Assembly (NCBI GenBank): GCA_013911135.1
Contig: JACERO010000079.1
Span: 24,051-88,050 of the forward strand
Direction of reading: 5' to 3'
DNA: 64,000 nt
Source: Candidatus Nitrosopumilus sp.
GTDB lineage: Archaea > Thermoproteota > Nitrososphaeria > Nitrososphaerales > Nitrosopumilaceae
In this document: piece after piece, positions 4,397 through 57,299 of the stretch
How the letters are laid out: each line of letters opens with the position of its first letter
Position numbering within the stretch: position 1 is the stretch's first letter
Notes under the pieces: generated by a model
Database searches by the model: none
Told to the model about the DNA's origin: nothing
Seen by the model: the letters and a program-made list of their open reading frames with translations, nothing else
Program-made: the position numbers and the translations under genes

Positions 4397-4873
4397 TGAT
4401 GCAAAAAACAGAATTGCTACTGATAAAAATACTGTCACTTCCCCAAGAACAATGATTTTTTTTCTTAATTTTTGAATTTGTGGCTCTGACATTTGATTAG
4501 ACATAATTTTTTCTTCAACATCTTTACGAATTACTCTAACATGTACTGCATATGTAATTACTAGTGCAATGACAAGAATTATCTTAATAATTAAAAATGT
4601 TCCATAACTTGTTGAGACAAGAAGTTCAGGTTTACCAAGTAATACATGAGAACTATACAATCCAGTTACCATTAAAATAATCAATGATGGAACCGCAATC
4701 TTGTTAAATCGTTTTCCAACACGAATCATTATTTTCATTCTTTCTTCAAGAGAATCAGTCATTGTTTTTAGAAGTGGAGAGAATACAAGTCCAATGAAAA
4801 GTGAACCACCAACCCATATTGCAGCTGCAATAAGATGAATCCAAGTGAGAATTGCTTGCTCTAGGACAGTCAT
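4376..4873 (-). CDS. CopD-like / DUF integral membrane protein
   Basis: Four hydrophobic helices; WIHLIAAAIWVGGSLFIGLVF resembles the CopD domain. Confidence 0.7.
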   Translation of the reverse strand: MTVLEQAILTWIHLIAAAIWVGGSLFIGLVFSPLLKTMTDSLEERMKIMIRVGKRFNKIAVPSLIILMVTGLYSSHVLLGKPELLVSTSYGTFLIIKIILVIALVITYAVHVRVIRKDVEEKIMSNQMSEPQIQKLRKKIIVLGEVTVFLSVAILFFASLLDAGV

Positions 4874-10094: not shown

Positions 10095-10286
10095 ATGAAA
10101 ATTGAGTGTGGTTGTCATTGTATAAAGTGCAAAAGTACAGATCTTAAATCAAATAGAATTGGAGAAGTTGAGAAGGATGGATATTTTGATATGCATCATA
10201 CATGTAACCAATGTAAGACACATTTTGATCATTTAGCCGGAGAAACTTTTTCTAATTGTGAAAAGTGTAATTATTCTGTTAGTTAG
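10095..10286 (+). CDS. Small Cys-rich zinc-finger protein
   Basis: ATG at 10095 inside the listed ORF gives MKIECGCHCIKCKSTDLKSNRIGEVEKDGYFDMHHTCNQCKTHFDHLAGETFSNCEKCNYSVS. Confidence 0.6.
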   Translation: MKIECGCHCIKCKSTDLKSNRIGEVEKDGYFDMHHTCNQCKTHFDHLAGETFSNCEKCNYSVS

Positions 10287-48218: not shown

Positions 48219-51200
48219 CTAGGCGTAATCAGTAAGAAGTGATTGGTCTCCTTTACTCTTACCAAATACTAATTCAATTTCGTCTGATAGAGCATAAATT
48301 CTTCCTCTTTGATATTCACCAACATCATATTTCTCAACAAGTCTTTTTGCAAGTTTTAGATATTTTTCAACAGAGCCTTTGGTAATTGTAGGAATTAGTT
48401 TATGACCACATACACATGTTTGAATTAGAGGCATCCGACGGAATGATTTTCCACAACCTGTGCACCTAAAGTTTTGTCTAGCGTATGCTCTAAGATTTCC
48501 CATAATATCTGGAACCAGATGTGTTGAAATGACATTTGAAACAATTTCTGAAGGATTTACTACATCAATTAATTCAGCATTTTTAATTTGCATATCAAAT
48601 TTGTCAAGCATTGAACCAAGTGTAGAGTAGGCGCTACGAGATTTTGAAGTGGTTAGTGATGAAGTTAAATGTGTAAAGAAATAATCATAAAATTGCCTTT
48701 CAGTTTCAAGACGTGACTTGATAATTTCTACAGATGTTATATCTGATGCTTTGTTCTGTTGAAATGTGGACTCGAAGAATTCTAAAGGAAGAAACTTTGT
48801 GACTTCAAGATTGTGTGCTTGTGGTTGAGATTCATGTGGTAAAACTAGAGGTTGCACAAGTAATGGAGCATCCATTAGCCCACCTATTCTATCAGAAAGA
48901 AATTGTCTTGAGAAATTAAGTAAGCTATCCATAAGAAGCATAATAGAATCAGCATCACCATCAGCATCTCTTCTTTTTGCAGAGTGCCAGTTTGGAGTTC
49001 CAAAACAAACATGTGTTTTAGTATATCCAATGATTCGTCCTACGATTCCAACAGAAGTATGTGGAGCTAAGCCAATTACTAGATGGCCGATAAGCTCTTC
49101 AGTATTCTTTACATTGTAAAATGAAGATTTTCCATAGAATTTCACTAAAAGAGTATCAATGTATTTACAAGTAGAAACCAAATAATTTCCACTATCATAC
49201 GGAATTATCACATCTTGCATACGAAGTTCAACAATCTGTTCTAAGTTTGTAAGTGGTTTCCCATCTATGTCGTGAGAATATCCAAGCTCCTTTAGTTTCT
49301 CTATAGATGTTTCAATCCATGATGGTTTGAATTGAGTTAAGGGGGAATTTGTTGCATCAAACCTAACAGTTCCATCTTTGAAGACTGTAAGTCCAAAGTT
49401 TTGACGTACAATTCCTTTTTCTAGAGGTTCAGCAATTCTATCTTGATTAATTAGCTCTTTGACGCCTTTGAATGGTTCTTTGACACGTAATCCCATCTTT
49501 TCCTGAGCTGATAGTAATTTTGTTTTTAGTGGAAATTCTTTGTGTGAGTGAGTTTGTACTTTGCGTTTACATTTTTTGCAATATGGTTCAGTAAGGGTAT
49601 TTCTACAGTTAGAACATTTGTAGAAAATTGTTGTTTTAGTGCCACATTTAGAGCACTTGATGCCTATAGAAGGTTCATCACATTGGTCACAATGTCTATT
49701 GAATATGTTAGTAAAGAAGTGTTCATTTCTTGATGCCTTTAGAAGATCTCTGGTAGGTCCTCCTTTGTCACTAATTGGAAATAATATGTGTGTAGGAGGT
49801 TTCATTTGTCTAGCAGCTGCTTTTTCAGGTCTTCCAATTCGAACTCCAATAGATGTTGAGAATTTATTTTTAATTTGAATTCCTGATGATTTTGTTAAAA
49901 TTTTTGGAACTGACAAATCACTAATTGTTGGTTTTTCTCTAAACAATAAATTAAAGAAAATTTTTGCCTCTAGATTTTCTAAGACTATAATTTCATTTTC
50001 AACTTTATGAGGAGTGCCCAATTTTTCAAGGATTTTTTTTATTTCTACAAAGTATTCAATTGATGTTTCAGTAACTTGTTTTGGTTCTAAAAGTTGACCA
50101 AGTTCTTTTGATGAGATTTTATCCCAGAAATATAGATAATGTGGATAAAGTGGAATTTGAAAGTCAAGGGAAATTTTTAGTGCCTCATCTATTGTGGGTA
50201 CTCTAGTCAGAAATTGTTTTAGATACTGATCATCAGGTTCATATTTTTGGATTTTTTGTTTTAGTTCCTCTATCCAAAATTCTTCAACATACCCTGAAGG
50301 AATAAGTTGAGCATTATTTTCAAGAAAGTCTCCAAATGAAATTAGTATATCTCCTAAGTGCAGGATTTTTTCAATTTCATTTTTGATTTCTAATCCATGT
50401 TTGATATCTCTAATCTTTACAACATTGCCATTTTTTAGGCGAACTGTCGGAGTGTCAATAGAATCAACAAAAGCAATAGTTGCTCCTTTTCCTGGAATGT
50501 CAATTTTGATTTGTGTTCCTACAACTATGGTATGATCTAAAATTTCACCTACTACGGGATGGATTCCAACTGCTGCAAAGCCTGTATTACATGCTCTTCC
50601 ATATCTTAATCTAAACCCACCTAACTTTTTAGGCATAGATAAGACTGATCTTCCTGTAATTACTTCACGCATTCTTTTAGCAGCTGCGTCTTCCTGATTT
50701 TCACCTGTTTGAACTATACCTTTCAGATCATTAAGCCATTCCCACCCATCTAGATTGTATAGCTCAATCCTTTTGAGAAGTTTTTTGGATCTTCCAATCA
50801 ATCCATCATTTAAGACTCGTAAAGCGCCTCCTCTAACCCTATCAGTTTTGATGCGAGTCATAGATTTGTGATTTACAACCTCAAATGGATCTGTATCTAC
50901 TCCGTCTAATTCGACTGGAAGGTGAGAAATGACATGTTCAATATCTTCATCTAAAATATGAAATTGAAAACTACTGGCCTCTCTTTCATAGATTCGTAAT
51001 TCCTCTACAAATCTACCAGTTTCATCATCAAATGAATTTGCTTGGTATTTTGTTAAACCAACTGCTTTTCTAACATGGTCTGCAATTAACATTGTTACAG
51101 CAGATTCTGTTCCTCCTGCTGAACGCATAGGTCCTGCAATAGAAACTGAAAGATACTTGGTGCCATCTTTGTTTTTCTTTATTTTTACTTCACTAATTCC

Positions 51201-51596
51201 CTGTAAAGGTGCGATGGTTACTCCTTCTGTAACAACGGCCAACCCTACACGAACTGCAAGATCTAGTTTGTCTTCTAAGGTAGCATCAAAAAGAGAGTAT
51301 TTACCAAGAGCAATTTCTTTTGATAAAATAAGTGCAGAGAGTTCCTTCCCGTTTATTTTTAGTAGTTCTCTAAGAGGTTCACCAATATCAATTTCGTGCA
51401 TTTTGGAAACACGATCTGCCAAATCAAATGCGATTTTAGGTTCAATTATACCTGAAGAGTCTACCAAACTTGATTTTGCAACTGCTGCTTTCTCAAAGAT
51501 GGAAACTGTTTCACTTGAAAGATTTGAGTAGTAATCATGATAATAATCTGGCATCTTAATATCACTAATACGAGAAATTGCATCGTTATCTGACAT
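48219..51596 (-). CDS. polC: DNA polymerase D large subunit (DP2)
   Basis: GPMRSAGGTESAVTMLIADHVRK, NWHSAKRRDADGDADSIMLLMD, zinc-finger Cys clusters. Confidence 0.96.
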   Translation of the reverse strand: MSDNDAISRISDIKMPDYYHDYYSNLSSETVSIFEKAAVAKSSLVDSSGIIEPKIAFDLADRVSKMHEIDIGEPLRELLKINGKELSALILSKEIALGKYSLFDATLEDKLDLAVRVGLAVVTEGVTIAPLQGISEVKIKKNKDGTKYLSVSIAGPMRSAGGTESAVTMLIADHVRKAVGLTKYQANSFDDETGRFVEELRIYEREASSFQFHILDEDIEHVISHLPVELDGVDTDPFEVVNHKSMTRIKTDRVRGGALRVLNDGLIGRSKKLLKRIELYNLDGWEWLNDLKGIVQTGENQEDAAAKRMREVITGRSVLSMPKKLGGFRLRYGRACNTGFAAVGIHPVVGEILDHTIVVGTQIKIDIPGKGATIAFVDSIDTPTVRLKNGNVVKIRDIKHGLEIKNEIEKILHLGDILISFGDFLENNAQLIPSGYVEEFWIEELKQKIQKYEPDDQYLKQFLTRVPTIDEALKISLDFQIPLYPHYLYFWDKISSKELGQLLEPKQVTETSIEYFVEIKKILEKLGTPHKVENEIIVLENLEAKIFFNLLFREKPTISDLSVPKILTKSSGIQIKNKFSTSIGVRIGRPEKAAARQMKPPTHILFPISDKGGPTRDLLKASRNEHFFTNIFNRHCDQCDEPSIGIKCSKCGTKTTIFYKCSNCRNTLTEPYCKKCKRKVQTHSHKEFPLKTKLLSAQEKMGLRVKEPFKGVKELINQDRIAEPLEKGIVRQNFGLTVFKDGTVRFDATNSPLTQFKPSWIETSIEKLKELGYSHDIDGKPLTNLEQIVELRMQDVIIPYDSGNYLVSTCKYIDTLLVKFYGKSSFYNVKNTEELIGHLVIGLAPHTSVGIVGRIIGYTKTHVCFGTPNWHSAKRRDADGDADSIMLLMDSLLNFSRQFLSDRIGGLMDAPLLVQPLVLPHESQPQAHNLEVTKFLPLEFFESTFQQNKASDITSVEIIKSRLETERQFYDYFFTHLTSSLTTSKSRSAYSTLGSMLDKFDMQIKNAELIDVVNPSEIVSNVISTHLVPDIMGNLRAYARQNFRCTGCGKSFRRMPLIQTCVCGHKLIPTITKGSVEKYLKLAKRLVEKYDVGEYQRGRIYALSDEIELVFGKSKGDQSLLTDYA

Positions 51597-52837: not shown

Positions 52838-53518
52838 GTGTGTCAGTATGTTAATCTAAAGTGTAAAATAATGTTGTTCAATCACGATAAATCACAACAT
52901 AGGCGTAAATTTGTGATGTTAGTAGAAATTCCTGATCCTGAAGTGATTTTGAGTGTAATTTTAGCATTTGTAGTTGGTTTAGGTGGGTTGTACGTGTTCT
53001 ACAAAGTACTTCCATTCATTAAATCAAAAAGTGAAATGTCTGATGTTCCACAATCTGAGCGTTTAGAGTACTACGAAAGGCAGTTAATTGACATGAAAAT
53101 ACGCTTAGATGCCTTAGAAATTCAAGGAATTGAGCCTAAAACAGAGGATTCTAACTTAGAATTAAAACAACTCTTAGAAAAGTTGTTAAATAACAAAGCA
53201 AAAGAAAATAATGTAGAAGAAGTAATTCAACCTAAAACAAGATCTGAAAAACCAATTTCCACACCCAATATTCCTAGTATAGATCACACAAACCCAACAG
53301 ATTATGTGTTACAATTAATCACAAACAAAACTATGACATCACGTGACATACAAATCACATTAAAGAGAAGTAGGGAACATACTTCAAGATTAATGAAGAA
53401 ATTATTTGATGGTGGTTTTGTTCAAAGAAATATAGAAACTAAACCATACACTTATTCAATTACTAAAAAGGGAAAAGCAAAGGTTGAAGAAGTTCAAACT
53501 AGTCAAATTATTGCATAA
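52838..53518 (+). CDS. Membrane-anchored protein with C-terminal winged-helix domain
   Basis: TM segment VILAFVVGLGGLYVFYKV, coiled coil, then MTSRDIQITLKRSREHTSRLMKKLFDGGFVQRNIETKPYTYSITKKGK. Confidence 0.65.
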   Translation: MCQYVNLKCKIMLFNHDKSQHRRKFVMLVEIPDPEVILSVILAFVVGLGGLYVFYKVLPFIKSKSEMSDVPQSERLEYYERQLIDMKIRLDALEIQGIEPKTEDSNLELKQLLEKLLNNKAKENNVEEVIQPKTRSEKPISTPNIPSIDHTNPTDYVLQLITNKTMTSRDIQITLKRSREHTSRLMKKLFDGGFVQRNIETKPYTYSITKKGKAKVEEVQTSQIIA

Positions 53519-53633: not shown

Positions 53634-53878
53634 ATGTCTGTTCAAGAGAATGAAGTATTGGTAAAAATCACTTCAGCCGGGACAATTTCTATTCCAAAAC
53701 AATTTAGAAATACATGGATATTCAAAAAGGTGAATATGTAAAGTTAATATTAGGAAAAGATCGGTTAATTGTTAGAAAAATAACATTTCTTAATTGGTTA
53801 TCGTTGTTTTTGGCTTATCTTTATGGTTTGATAGGTCCATTCACGGCCTGTTCTAACTCTATCAATCCTACCTTTTGA
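53634..53878 (+). pseudogene. AbrB/SpoVT-type DNA-binding protein with a frameshift near 53707
   Basis: VLVKITSAGTISIPKQFRN then one-base shift gives KYMDIQKGEYVKLILGKDRLIVRKI. Confidence 0.6.
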
Positions 53879-54184
53879 TGAAAAACGTGACAAATAGGTG
53901 GATATTATACTAAGTTTTACTGGTTCGTTGAATTCATCTTCGTATTTTTCAAGAACGGTCGTGGAGGTAAATTTACTCATTGGGAAGAATTTATCCACAA
54001 TATGCCAAATTTTTAAGCCTACTGAGTCCATGTTTGTTGTTTCGTGTTCTTCCTTAATATTCATTAAGTCCATCATTTCAAATATTTTGAGAACCTTTTC
54101 CCTGGTGACATTACCTTCTATTTTGATGTCAAATCGTGCACCATCTAAGTCCTCCATGTCTATTCGAATACGTTTTTTAGCCAT
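53798..54184 (-). CDS. Hypothetical winged-helix-like protein
   Basis: Complete ORF; C-terminal LSIISTYLSRFSSKGRIDRVRTGREWTYQ. Confidence 0.55.
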   Translation of the reverse strand: MAKKRIRIDMEDLDGARFDIKIEGNVTREKVLKIFEMMDLMNIKEEHETTNMDSVGLKIWHIVDKFFPMSKFTSTTVLEKYEDEFNEPVKLSIISTYLSRFSSKGRIDRVRTGREWTYQTIKISQKQR

Positions 54185-54343
54185 CTTTGAGATCTAAAGG
54201 ATCAGATGTTAACAGTTCAATTGATCTGAGAATGTTTGTTAACTAGATTGTTTGTTAACACTGACTGCGTAAGCCACGCCTAGCCATATTTTTGTTATTA
54301 ACAACATATCATGTAAAACCCCCTCTAATTAAGAAATATTTAT

Positions 54344-54365
54344 GCCTGGAGTGGAAACAAAAGGG
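54344..54365 (+). promoter_or_regulatory. ORB-like element 1
   Basis: GCCTGGAGTGGAAACAAAAGGG, resembling archaeal mini-ORB (TGGAAAC + G-tract). Confidence 0.7.
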
Positions 54366-54405
54366 TTGTTTCAAGCATATTCACAGTGTTAACATCAATC
54401 TTAAC

Positions 54406-54427
54406 GCCTGGAATGGAAATTAAAGGG
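54406..54427 (+). promoter_or_regulatory. ORB-like element 2
   Basis: GCCTGGAATGGAAATTAAAGGG, 19/22 identical to element 1, same orientation. Confidence 0.68.
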
Positions 54428-54461
54428 TCAAAATAGACTTTTTGTATAATTTCATAACAGG

Positions 54462-54482
54462 AAATTAACAAAATGTTAATTT
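54462..54482. repeat. Perfect inverted repeat, 9-bp arms with 3-nt spacer
   Basis: AAATTAACA-AAA-TGTTAATTT. Confidence 0.8.
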
Positions 54483-54668
54483 TAAGGTAAAAATTAGATT
54501 CAACCCACACACCAATCTTTCCACTCTATATTTTTTTTAATTTTTTTTTAAGAAAATCAAAATCTAACTAAAAATAATTAATTACAAACTAAACTAGAGT
54601 TACTGTTCTCTTCTATACTCTCTTAATTTAGATATGGTTATGATATTATTAATAGGAAACAAAGGTGT

Positions 54669-55877
54669 GTGAGTATGTCTGATCCGGTAGATAGATTACT
54701 TGATGCAGTAGAATTAGGTGAATCTATAATAAAAAACAGAGATATTTTACAAACAACTTACATACCAAATACCATACAACATAGAACTTCTGAACAAGAA
54801 CAAGTTACACAATCACTATTACCAATACTAAAACAATCAAGACCATCTAATCTTTTGGTTTATGGAAAACCTGGAATAGGTAAAACATTAGTTGTAAAAA
54901 AAGTAATTTCTAAAATTCAAGAAAGAGTAGAAAAATCAAATTTTCCAATTAAACTAGTTTATTCAAACTCTAAAGAAGAGACGACCCTTTATGGATTATT
55001 AGTTAGTTTAGGCAGACAATTAAATCTAAATGAGAAAGAATTACCCACAACTGGTCTAGCAATAAGTGAGGTTTTCAAAAGACTCCTCAATAAGATTGAT
55101 GAAGGAAAACTTAACGCAATTTTTGTAATTGATGAGATTGACTATCTAGTCCAATTAATATCAAAAACAGGTAAGGACATCTTATACCAACTTACAAGAG
55201 CAAATGAGCGATTAAAACAAGGCTCCCTAACTTTGGTAGGAATTTCAAATGATCTAACGTTTAAAGAAAAACTAGACCCTAGAGTAATTAGCAGTCTTGG
55301 TGAAGAAGAGATTGTCTTTACTAACTATAATGTTGAACAAATTAAAACAATTCTTGAAGAGAGAATTAATGAAGCCTTTGTAGAGAATTCTGTTGAGGAT
55401 CCTGCCCTAAATCTATGTGCAGCACTTGTAGGAGGAGAACACGGTGATGCTCGTAGGGCAATTGATTTGATTCGTGTCGCAGGAGAGATTGCTGAAAGAC
55501 AACAATCAAACAAAGTTACAGTTGAACATGTCAGAGAAGCCTCTCTAAAAATTGAAGAAAACAAAGAGGAAACCTCTCTAAAATCATATCCCCTTCATGA
55601 AAAACTAATCATTCTTGCAATTATGAAGGCAAATGGCTCTTCAACTGGAGAGATCTACTCATCATACAAAAATCTCTGCAAGACAGTTGGCCGGGATGAG
55701 CTAACCCAAAGAAGGATTACACAAATGTTGAGTGAAATTGAATTATCTGGAATTATTACTGGAAGACTAGTCCACCAAGGAATTCACGGTAGAACAAAAA
55801 AATACAAACTTACAATCTCATCTGAAATGATAAAAAAGACCTTCAAAAACGATCTAACTTTGAAGGATATTATCTAA
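54669..55877 (+). CDS. cdc6: Orc1/Cdc6 replication initiator
   Basis: NLLVYGKPGIGKTLVVKKV, AIFVIDEIDYLV, GEHGDARRAIDLIRVAGEIAE. Confidence 0.95.
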   Translation: MSMSDPVDRLLDAVELGESIIKNRDILQTTYIPNTIQHRTSEQEQVTQSLLPILKQSRPSNLLVYGKPGIGKTLVVKKVISKIQERVEKSNFPIKLVYSNSKEETTLYGLLVSLGRQLNLNEKELPTTGLAISEVFKRLLNKIDEGKLNAIFVIDEIDYLVQLISKTGKDILYQLTRANERLKQGSLTLVGISNDLTFKEKLDPRVISSLGEEEIVFTNYNVEQIKTILEERINEAFVENSVEDPALNLCAALVGGEHGDARRAIDLIRVAGEIAERQQSNKVTVEHVREASLKIEENKEETSLKSYPLHEKLIILAIMKANGSSTGEIYSSYKNLCKTVGRDELTQRRITQMLSEIELSGIITGRLVHQGIHGRTKKYKLTISSEMIKKTFKNDLTLKDII

Positions 55878-57299
55878 CTCTAAATTATAATTTTCATAAT
55901 GAACTTGGAAAGTTTTTAGATTTACCATAAGTGCAATTCCTGGATTTGGGGTCATTCCAACACTAACCTGGAAAGGTGTTTGTTTTTGCCATGAACCAGA
56001 ATTTACCAATAAAATTCCCTTATACATATCCAATTCTGCTCTATGAACATGACCTACATGAAAGATATCTGGAATATCCTCAATTACCAAAAGATCCTCC
56101 ATCTCTGGGGCTATGGGTGTTTGACTACCATAAATTGGACTTAGGTGTCTAGCCTTGAGAAGATGTTTCATTACATTTGTTGGTTTGTCATAACTTAGAC
56201 CAGGTGTGGTCTTTACAATATCATCAATACTCTGTCCATGAAACATCATTACCTTTACCCCGTTCAATGAAACTACGGCTGGGTTTCCAACCATTACTAC
56301 ATTTTCCATTTCCCACAAACTTGAATTGTATTTTTTTGGTATGGCTGGTTGTGGGAGGGCTCTTCTTCCAGGATCATGGTTTCCAGGCATTATAATGACC
56401 TTTATATTTTTTGGAATCTTTTCAATCAAACCAACTGCCTTTTTTAGTTGCTCTTCAATGGTCTGGCAAATCAATTCTTTATCCTGATTTGGATATATTC
56501 CAACTCCATCAACTACATCACCTCCAATTAAGACAAAACGAATTTTTCTTGCAACTGGATCTGGGCTTGATAACCACAAAATAAATTTTGTAAATTCCTC
56601 CTCCATGAAGTACTTACTTCCAATATGAAGATCTGAAAGAAAGACTGCATACACTTCAGATTCTGATTTGTTGATGGCCTGATCTGGAATATCTGGCAGA
56701 ATTATATTCTTTATAATAAATCCAGAATTCTTTCCTAAACCTATCCTTACCATTACAAATTGGTCAGTTAGAAGAGTACCTACAGTCTTTTGTAATTCAT
56801 TATCAAAAACAATACCCTCAAACAAACCTGATGGGTCCTCTAGAGTCAATTTTGAGATATTTCTTTTACTAATTCTTGAAGTAACAAGACCACAGACGTA
56901 CGTATCTCCTTCTTGTTTTGTGGTTTTCAAAGATGCAATAGATTTGAGTTTTTTTGATTCTGGTCTATCTGAAATTATTCTTTTAAGCTTGTTAAAACGA
57001 CTTGAAAATAATGCATTATACCCTTTAACTCCCTCACCTGTTGTTATTTTTTTCGTAGGATCAGATAATACTTTGATTTTACTTTGTAGAGTTGGATCCT
57101 CTTTAATTCCAAGATATGTCTCTAAATCATCTTGGTTGATCTGAAATAATTTTTGTTTGGTTTTCTCTCTAACTATCTCTTTTATGATCTTCTCTAATTT
57201 TTTAACATCAAAATTTTCTAAAATTTTAAAAGCATCTGGATGAATCTGAAATCCTTTGTTTAATGCATAGTTTAATGCAAAGGTTAACTCCTTTTTCAT
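55854..57299 (-). CDS. polB: DNA polymerase D small subunit (DP1)
   Basis: YAVFLSDLHIGSKYFMEEEF, LIGGDVVDGVGIYPNQ, IIMPGNHDPGRRALPQPAIPKKY. Confidence 0.95.
   Translation of the reverse strand: MKKELTFALNYALNKGFQIHPDAFKILENFDVKKLEKIIKEIVREKTKQKLFQINQDDLETYLGIKEDPTLQSKIKVLSDPTKKITTGEGVKGYNALFSSRFNKLKRIISDRPESKKLKSIASLKTTKQEGDTYVCGLVTSRISKRNISKLTLEDPSGLFEGIVFDNELQKTVGTLLTDQFVMVRIGLGKNSGFIIKNIILPDIPDQAINKSESEVYAVFLSDLHIGSKYFMEEEFTKFILWLSSPDPVARKIRFVLIGGDVVDGVGIYPNQDKELICQTIEEQLKKAVGLIEKIPKNIKVIIMPGNHDPGRRALPQPAIPKKYNSSLWEMENVVMVGNPAVVSLNGVKVMMFHGQSIDDIVKTTPGLSYDKPTNVMKHLLKARHLSPIYGSQTPIAPEMEDLLVIEDIPDIFHVGHVHRAELDMYKGILLVNSGSWQKQTPFQVSVGMTPNPGIALMVNLKTFQVHYENYNLELDNILQS

Follow-up and report, generated by a model that had tools for sequence, protein, structure and literature searches.

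A conserved family of TTAACA boxes and a candidate winged-helix reader at the ORB-type replication origin of a Nitrosopumilus-type archaeon

We conclude that the 490-bp gap between a winged-helix gene and cdc6 in the 64,000-nucleotide stretch of archaeal DNA analyzed here (the window) is, with little doubt, the ORB-type chromosomal oriC of a Nitrosopumilus-type archaeon. This reading is well supported by the conservation of the ORBs, by a skew switch in complete relatives and by the in vivo mapping of the Nitrosopumilus maritimus origin. The origin itself is of an already known kind, as mapped in N. maritimus in 2013; however, the gap also contains a second conserved family of boxes, which in these origins seems to be undescribed. 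We consider it an evenly balanced proposition that the Nitrososphaeria and several other families of the Thermoproteota share an Orc1-independent box code (TTAACA or TTCACA), recognized by a BlaI-like protein that is single copy and mostly origin linked, and that this protein is an undescribed dedicated regulator, the specificity of which has shifted with residue 93 (T versus I, V, L, A or M). No description of a thaumarchaeal origin winged-helix protein was found in the openly readable literature; the N. maritimus origin paper may mention the boxes or the gene.

The window belongs to a Nitrosopumilus-type genome of 1.71 Mb in 107 contigs. The genes flanking the gap were correctly predicted from the sequence as cdc6 and the DP1 gene, and the DP2 gene is also nearby (Table 1). 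The cdc6 product scored 365 bits against TIGR02928, and no second copy was found in the window genome. One to three additional, distant Cdc6 paralogues (approximately 30% identity) are carried by relatives (G034, G074, G048, G066 and others), away from this locus, and by contrast are lacking in the window genome. Near the origin there is also a 226-amino-acid ORF (52838-53518, plus strand) with a C-terminal TrmB/Lrs14-like winged helix, as judged from weak matches.

Table 1. Features of the origin region, in window coordinates
Feature	Position	Strand	Remark
DP2 gene	48219-51596	-	
Gene for 128-aa protein, candidate TTAACA reader	53798-54184	-	Divergent from cdc6
TTAACA box, TGTTAACA palindrome	54207-54214	.	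Conserved columns, clustering
TTAACA-type box, TGTTAAC	54237-54243	.	
TTAACA box, TGTTAACA palindrome	54253-54260	.	
TTAACA box inside conserved TTATTAACA	54298-54303	+	
ORB1, predicted Orc1/Cdc6 site	54344-54365	+	Pattern match, conservation
TTAACA box between ORB1 and ORB2, TGTTAACA	54387-54394	.	
ORB2, predicted Orc1/Cdc6 site	54406-54427	+	62 bp from ORB1
9-bp inverted repeat, two facing TTAACA boxes (54465-54470, 54474-54479)	54462-54482	.	
ORB3, inverted, AATATAGAGTGGAAAGATTGGTG on minus strand	54510-54532	-	Strongly conserved columns, 90 relatives
T-rich tract, part of presumed unwinding element	54530-54549	+	
AT-rich block CTAACTAAAAATAATTAATTACAAACTAAACTA, between ORB3 and ORB4	54564-54596	.	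Likely DNA unwinding element
Weak ORB4, immediately 5' of cdc6 start	54655-54667	+	Conserved
orc1/cdc6 initiator gene	54669-55877	+	Conserved start more likely ATG 54675
DNA polymerase D small subunit (DP1) gene	55854-57299	-	

The two same-strand 22-bp repeats on which the original prediction was built (GCCTGGAGTGGAAACAAAAGGG and GCCTGGAATGGAAATTAAAGGG, 62 bp apart start to start) are present as described, and their likeness to mini-ORB sites is genuine; that label was nevertheless too modest, because the sites are ORBs. Allowing up to three mismatches, 0.31 matches to the ORB pattern would be expected per 64 kb, whereas ORB1 and ORB2 both match it with none. The whole window genome has exactly two matches to CCTNGANTGGAAANNNNNGGG. 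This pattern was found in 125 of the 151 Nitrosopumilaceae genomes searched, usually as exactly two copies that precede cdc6 and have its orientation; the reversed-pattern control gave no matches in that search. Spacing is also preserved: both copies were found at 64 of the 80 named loci, and at these ORB1 and ORB2 are either 62 bp (39 loci) or 61 bp (25 loci) apart. The predicted conservation of the repeats upstream of cdc6 was therefore borne out across the family, and it extends, in canonical ORB form, across the class: other families have ORBs such as CTCCAGTGGAAATAAAGGGGTC at the same place, often 61 to 62 bp apart, and the class-wide sites have the canonical form CCAGTGGAAATAAAGGGG and match the published Methanomicrobia motif TCCA[GC]T[GT]GAAA[CT][AG]A[AT]GGGGT (PMC4164010). 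The ORB core GGAAAYRAWGGGG is exact in many relatives, whereas in their 3' part the window copies deviate from it by one or two bases; both end in AAAGGG instead of the AAGGGG usual in the family, the other differences being small.

Other parts of the origin are conserved as well. The weaker site that had been noted directly before cdc6 (GGAAACAAAGGTG, now ORB4) is real, and the T-rich tract is present, but the first reading overlooked the inverted ORB3, the TTAACA boxes at 54298, 54465 and 54474, and the AT block. In 90 relatives, the columns of this block are approximately 90 to 100% conserved, and the AT content between ORB3 and ORB4 reaches 88%. The locus thus has the adjacent cdc6 gene, the repeated ORBs with one inverted copy and the AT-rich element of an ORB-type origin, and it resembles those of Pyrococcus, Sulfolobus (oriC1) and the Methanomicrobia in its adjacent Orc1/Cdc6 gene, in the GGAAAYRAWGGGG core and in the inverted ORBs that flank an AT-rich element (PMC4164010). 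It differs from the ORB-type consensus in that TGGA replaces the consensus TCCA in the Nitrosopumilaceae (PMC4164010), and from other ORB-type origins in its two same-strand ORBs at a fixed distance of 61 to 62 bp, its TTAACA boxes and its winged-helix partner. The likeness to the origin of N. maritimus SCM1 is close: a complete genome of N. maritimus size (G046) has cdc6, ORB1 and ORB2 62 bp apart, an inverted ORB3, a weak ORB4, the same AT block, TTAACA boxes and a divergent winged-helix gene, all located at the sequence ends. In G046 and several other complete genomes, position 1 has been set inside the origin (35-57 and 1645086-1645259 in G046), so that the ORBs are split from cdc6 by the start of numbering and scans without wrap-around miss them.

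Evidence that replication starts at this place comes from complete relatives, the window genome being a draft of 107 contigs. Approximately 400 kb was sampled from each of two such genomes, G046 and G032; skew was calculated at third codon positions (GC3 and AT3), with gene strand regressed out, and compared with 200 permutations of the stretches. Over the sampled stretches of relatives, raw GC and AT skews were uninformative. The third-position skews switched at cdc6 in both G046 (F=43.6 for GC3 and 288 for AT3) and G032 (F=44.5 and 231, respectively), with none of the 200 permutations matching the best fit in either genome, and in both the composition also switched at the antipode of cdc6. 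A third relative, G124, was weaker: its AT3 skew fitted best at 480 kb, with cdc6 at 498 kb, and 16 of 200 permutations were as strong, while its GC3 skew had no peak at cdc6. The skew extremum of an ORB-type origin was accordingly found in G046 and G032 and only partly in G124. These data are in agreement with N. maritimus, which has one chromosomal origin, mapped in vivo (Pelve 2013, cited in PMC4010727), and in which the Ori-Finder 2 prediction was counted as a true positive (PMC4164010); in the Nitrosocaldus genome paper, the origin was assigned by analogy. With the skew switching at cdc6 in two complete relatives rather than elsewhere, and with the repeats conserved, the original reading of the gap as a replication origin was upheld.

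The second box family became apparent from elements that had been listed as separate features of the gap. The four TGTTAAC palindromes of the original prediction (54207, 54237, 54253 and 54387) were correctly placed; however, only three are palindromic (the full TGTTAACA), the site at 54237 being TGTTAACT. The perfect 9-bp inverted repeat (AAATTAACA-AAA-TGTTAATTT) is likewise present. These elements are not loose extras but members of one conserved family, which is interleaved with the ORBs before, between and after ORB1 and ORB2. GTTAACA occurs seven times in the gap, against 0.12 expected from base composition, on which the other expected counts are also based, and TTAACA or TGTTAA occurs 10 times; none of 2,000 dinucleotide shuffles of the gap reached either count. 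Outside the gap, no 500-bp stretch of the window has more than two copies of GTTAACA, and the maximum per 500 bp was also two in the 400 kb sampled from G046 with the origin excluded, compared with 10 at the origin of G124. The alignment columns of the boxes are conserved in 90 relatives. In most of the class, including its GC-richer genomes, GTTAACA ranks first or among the first of the overrepresented 7-mers at the origin. TTCACA/TGTGAA takes the place of the TTAACA box in four families (f4 and f6 to f8) and in many families outside the class.

The gene on the other side of the gap provides a candidate reader for these boxes. Its product is predicted to have a beta-beta-alpha N-terminal part and a C-terminal winged helix of the BlaI/MecI type, with a recognition helix at residues 91 to 103; AF2 models had a pLDDT of approximately 90 over residues 61 to 120, and the top Foldseek match was BlaI, a weak match (E value of 5e-3, TM score of approximately 0.4). 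The ORF had no Pfam or NCBIfam match above cutoff, its Penicillinase_R score of 16.1 bits falling below the gathering threshold of 22.6, although Penicillinase_R matched 26 of 36 homologues (E value of 0.1 or less, best 1.1e-7); nothing credible emerged when the family profile was searched against PDB sequences. The protein is therefore predicted to be of the BlaI fold type but is not assigned to the Penicillinase_R family. It resembles the BlaI, MecI and CopY repressors in its winged-helix fold and weakly in sequence, but its N-terminal part differs, and it is archaeal, single copy, origin linked and without a resistance-type operon.

The window genome has a single copy of the gene. Of 110 Nitrosopumilaceae loci, 105 have it upstream of cdc6 in divergent orientation, and the remaining five are short on that side. 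Across the class, 36 of 39 loci carry it upstream of cdc6, nearly always divergently, the two genes being codirectional in G254 and G159. Outside the class, it is divergent and within 3 kb of cdc6 in 36 of the 97 genomes that carry it, representing 11 families; the idea of a universal linkage to cdc6 was rejected there, as the gene is not beside cdc6 in f20, f25, f30, f45 and other families. The families outside the class in which the gene is linked and boxes are present are represented by one to three genomes each, and most of the genomes analyzed are drafts. In a few lineages within the sample (G232, G192 and relatives, and G251), the gene has been relocated; the cdc6/ORB region of these genomes retains 14 to 16 copies of TTAAC, against approximately three expected, while no boxes were found upstream of the relocated gene itself. 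Since the boxes remain at the origin where the gene lies elsewhere, autoregulation of the winged-helix gene was rejected as their sole role. Conversely, five sampled families without the gene, all distant lineages and one with a short region, had no boxes upstream of cdc6.

The type of box also tends to follow residue 93, the third position of the recognition helix. Threonine is found at this position in 20 of 22 genomes with TTCACA boxes, whereas 40 of 41 genomes with TTAACA boxes have another residue; the exceptions are G254, G259 and G169. Counted by family, T93 is present in 13 of 15 TTCACA families and in none of 8 TTAACA families (Fisher p=9e-5). On the Cdc6 tree, however, the box type switched only about three times, giving two to three independent pairs, nearly all of which changed in the predicted direction. 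So few pairs cannot reach 0.05, and a claim of statistical significance was therefore rejected; other columns (for example, 19, 36, 43 and 101) associate with box type about equally well, as lineage markers would. The apparent tracking of box type by residue 93 is suggestive and is not significant after correction for phylogeny.

Several other explanations of the gap must be weighed against these data. The gap is divergent and intergenic, and the weak ORB4 could overlap the cdc6 promoter or start, which would suit a promoter region only, in which the sites serve the autoregulation of cdc6 and the winged-helix gene, with replication beginning at another place. We regard this as highly improbable, given the skew switches at this place in two relatives, the single origin mapped in N. 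maritimus (PMC4010727), the persistence of boxes beside the ORBs where the winged-helix gene is elsewhere, and the conservation of the ORB phasing and the AT block far beyond the needs of a promoter. It is harder still to credit that the palindromes arose by chance from the AT richness of the DNA. GTTAAC as such occurs 19 times in the window, compared with 13.7 expected, and is thus not a rare sequence, but seven GTTAACA boxes were never reached by shuffling the gap, their columns are conserved in 90 relatives, and the overrepresentation of this 7-mer persists in GC-richer genomes of the class.

The alternatives that concern the reader and the role of the boxes carry more weight. It is quite possible, though we would not favor it, that the boxes are functional origin elements with a different reader, such as a UBP-like nucleoid protein, an Lrs14-type regulator or a second initiator, and that the linkage of the winged-helix gene has another reason; binding by the winged-helix protein is a prediction, many families outside the class lack the linkage to cdc6, and UBP, a nucleoid protein of Sulfolobus, recognizes a motif that is essential to the origin there (PMC12141716). 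Against such a reader are the single-copy winged helix encoded at the origin, the tracking of box type by residue 93, and the five gene-less families in which no boxes were found upstream of cdc6. Control of cdc6 and winged-helix transcription rather than of replication appears unlikely: this role would fit the BlaI/MecI repressor type of the fold and the several boxes near the start of the winged-helix gene, but not the relocated genes, which have no upstream boxes while the origin retains its own, nor the interleaving of the boxes with ORB1 and ORB2, far upstream of cdc6. The boxes may nevertheless control cdc6 alone. On balance, we are inclined to the view that the winged-helix protein itself binds the TTAACA boxes.

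The nearest analogue is the UBP/ucm system of the Sulfolobales, in which an essential second origin motif has its own small DNA-binding protein (PMC12141716). UBP forms a saddle-shaped dimer with stirrup loops, and its binding sites comprise a motif within the unwinding element and hundreds of other genomic sites (PMC12141716). The likeness lies in a conserved origin motif that is not an Orc1 site and that has a candidate small DNA-binding protein; unlike ucm, the boxes of the window occur in several copies that cluster at the origin, most of them away from the presumed unwinding element, and the protein proposed to read them is encoded beside the origin and is a predicted BlaI-like winged helix, which does not place it in the saddle-shaped UBP fold. 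In bacteria, origin regulators of the CtrA/SeqA type have repeated boxes interleaved with initiator boxes, and CtrA half-sites are of the TTAAC type; there is no homology to these systems, and the likeness is one of analogy only.

What is directly established here is the sequence, its conservation, the synteny, the skew switch in relatives and the clustering of the boxes, and from this basis a mechanism can be envisaged. Orc1/Cdc6 made from the adjacent gene would bind ORB1 and ORB2, phased on the same face of the helix, and would also bind the inverted ORB3 and the weak ORB4. In line with established knowledge of ORB origins, the initiator would then open the AT-rich stretch flanked by ORB3 and ORB4, and the MCM helicase would be loaded at this unwinding element. 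The approximately seven TTAACA boxes would most likely be bound by the origin-linked BlaI-like winged-helix protein, which may modulate initiation through DNA bending or through competition or cooperation with Orc1/Cdc6. The control of replication timing in ammonia-oxidizing archaea is not understood, and a second box family with a linked protein, if confirmed, would offer a concrete candidate for a replication regulator in these organisms and would add a second system to UBP, the archaeal case of a known origin accessory protein. The proposed role of residue 93 predicts which protein binds which box.

ORBs of the host type were also observed in another genome. A segment of contig C6 of genome G104 (L150, contig positions 36000-52000) carries CCTAGAGTGGAAATGAAGGGG and CCTAGAGTGGAAATAAAGGGG at segment positions 4742-4762 and 10212-10232, 5.5 kb apart, each preceded by a similar T/C-rich stretch. 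This 56-kb contig consists of unnamed ORFs and could be a mobile element making use of the host initiator.
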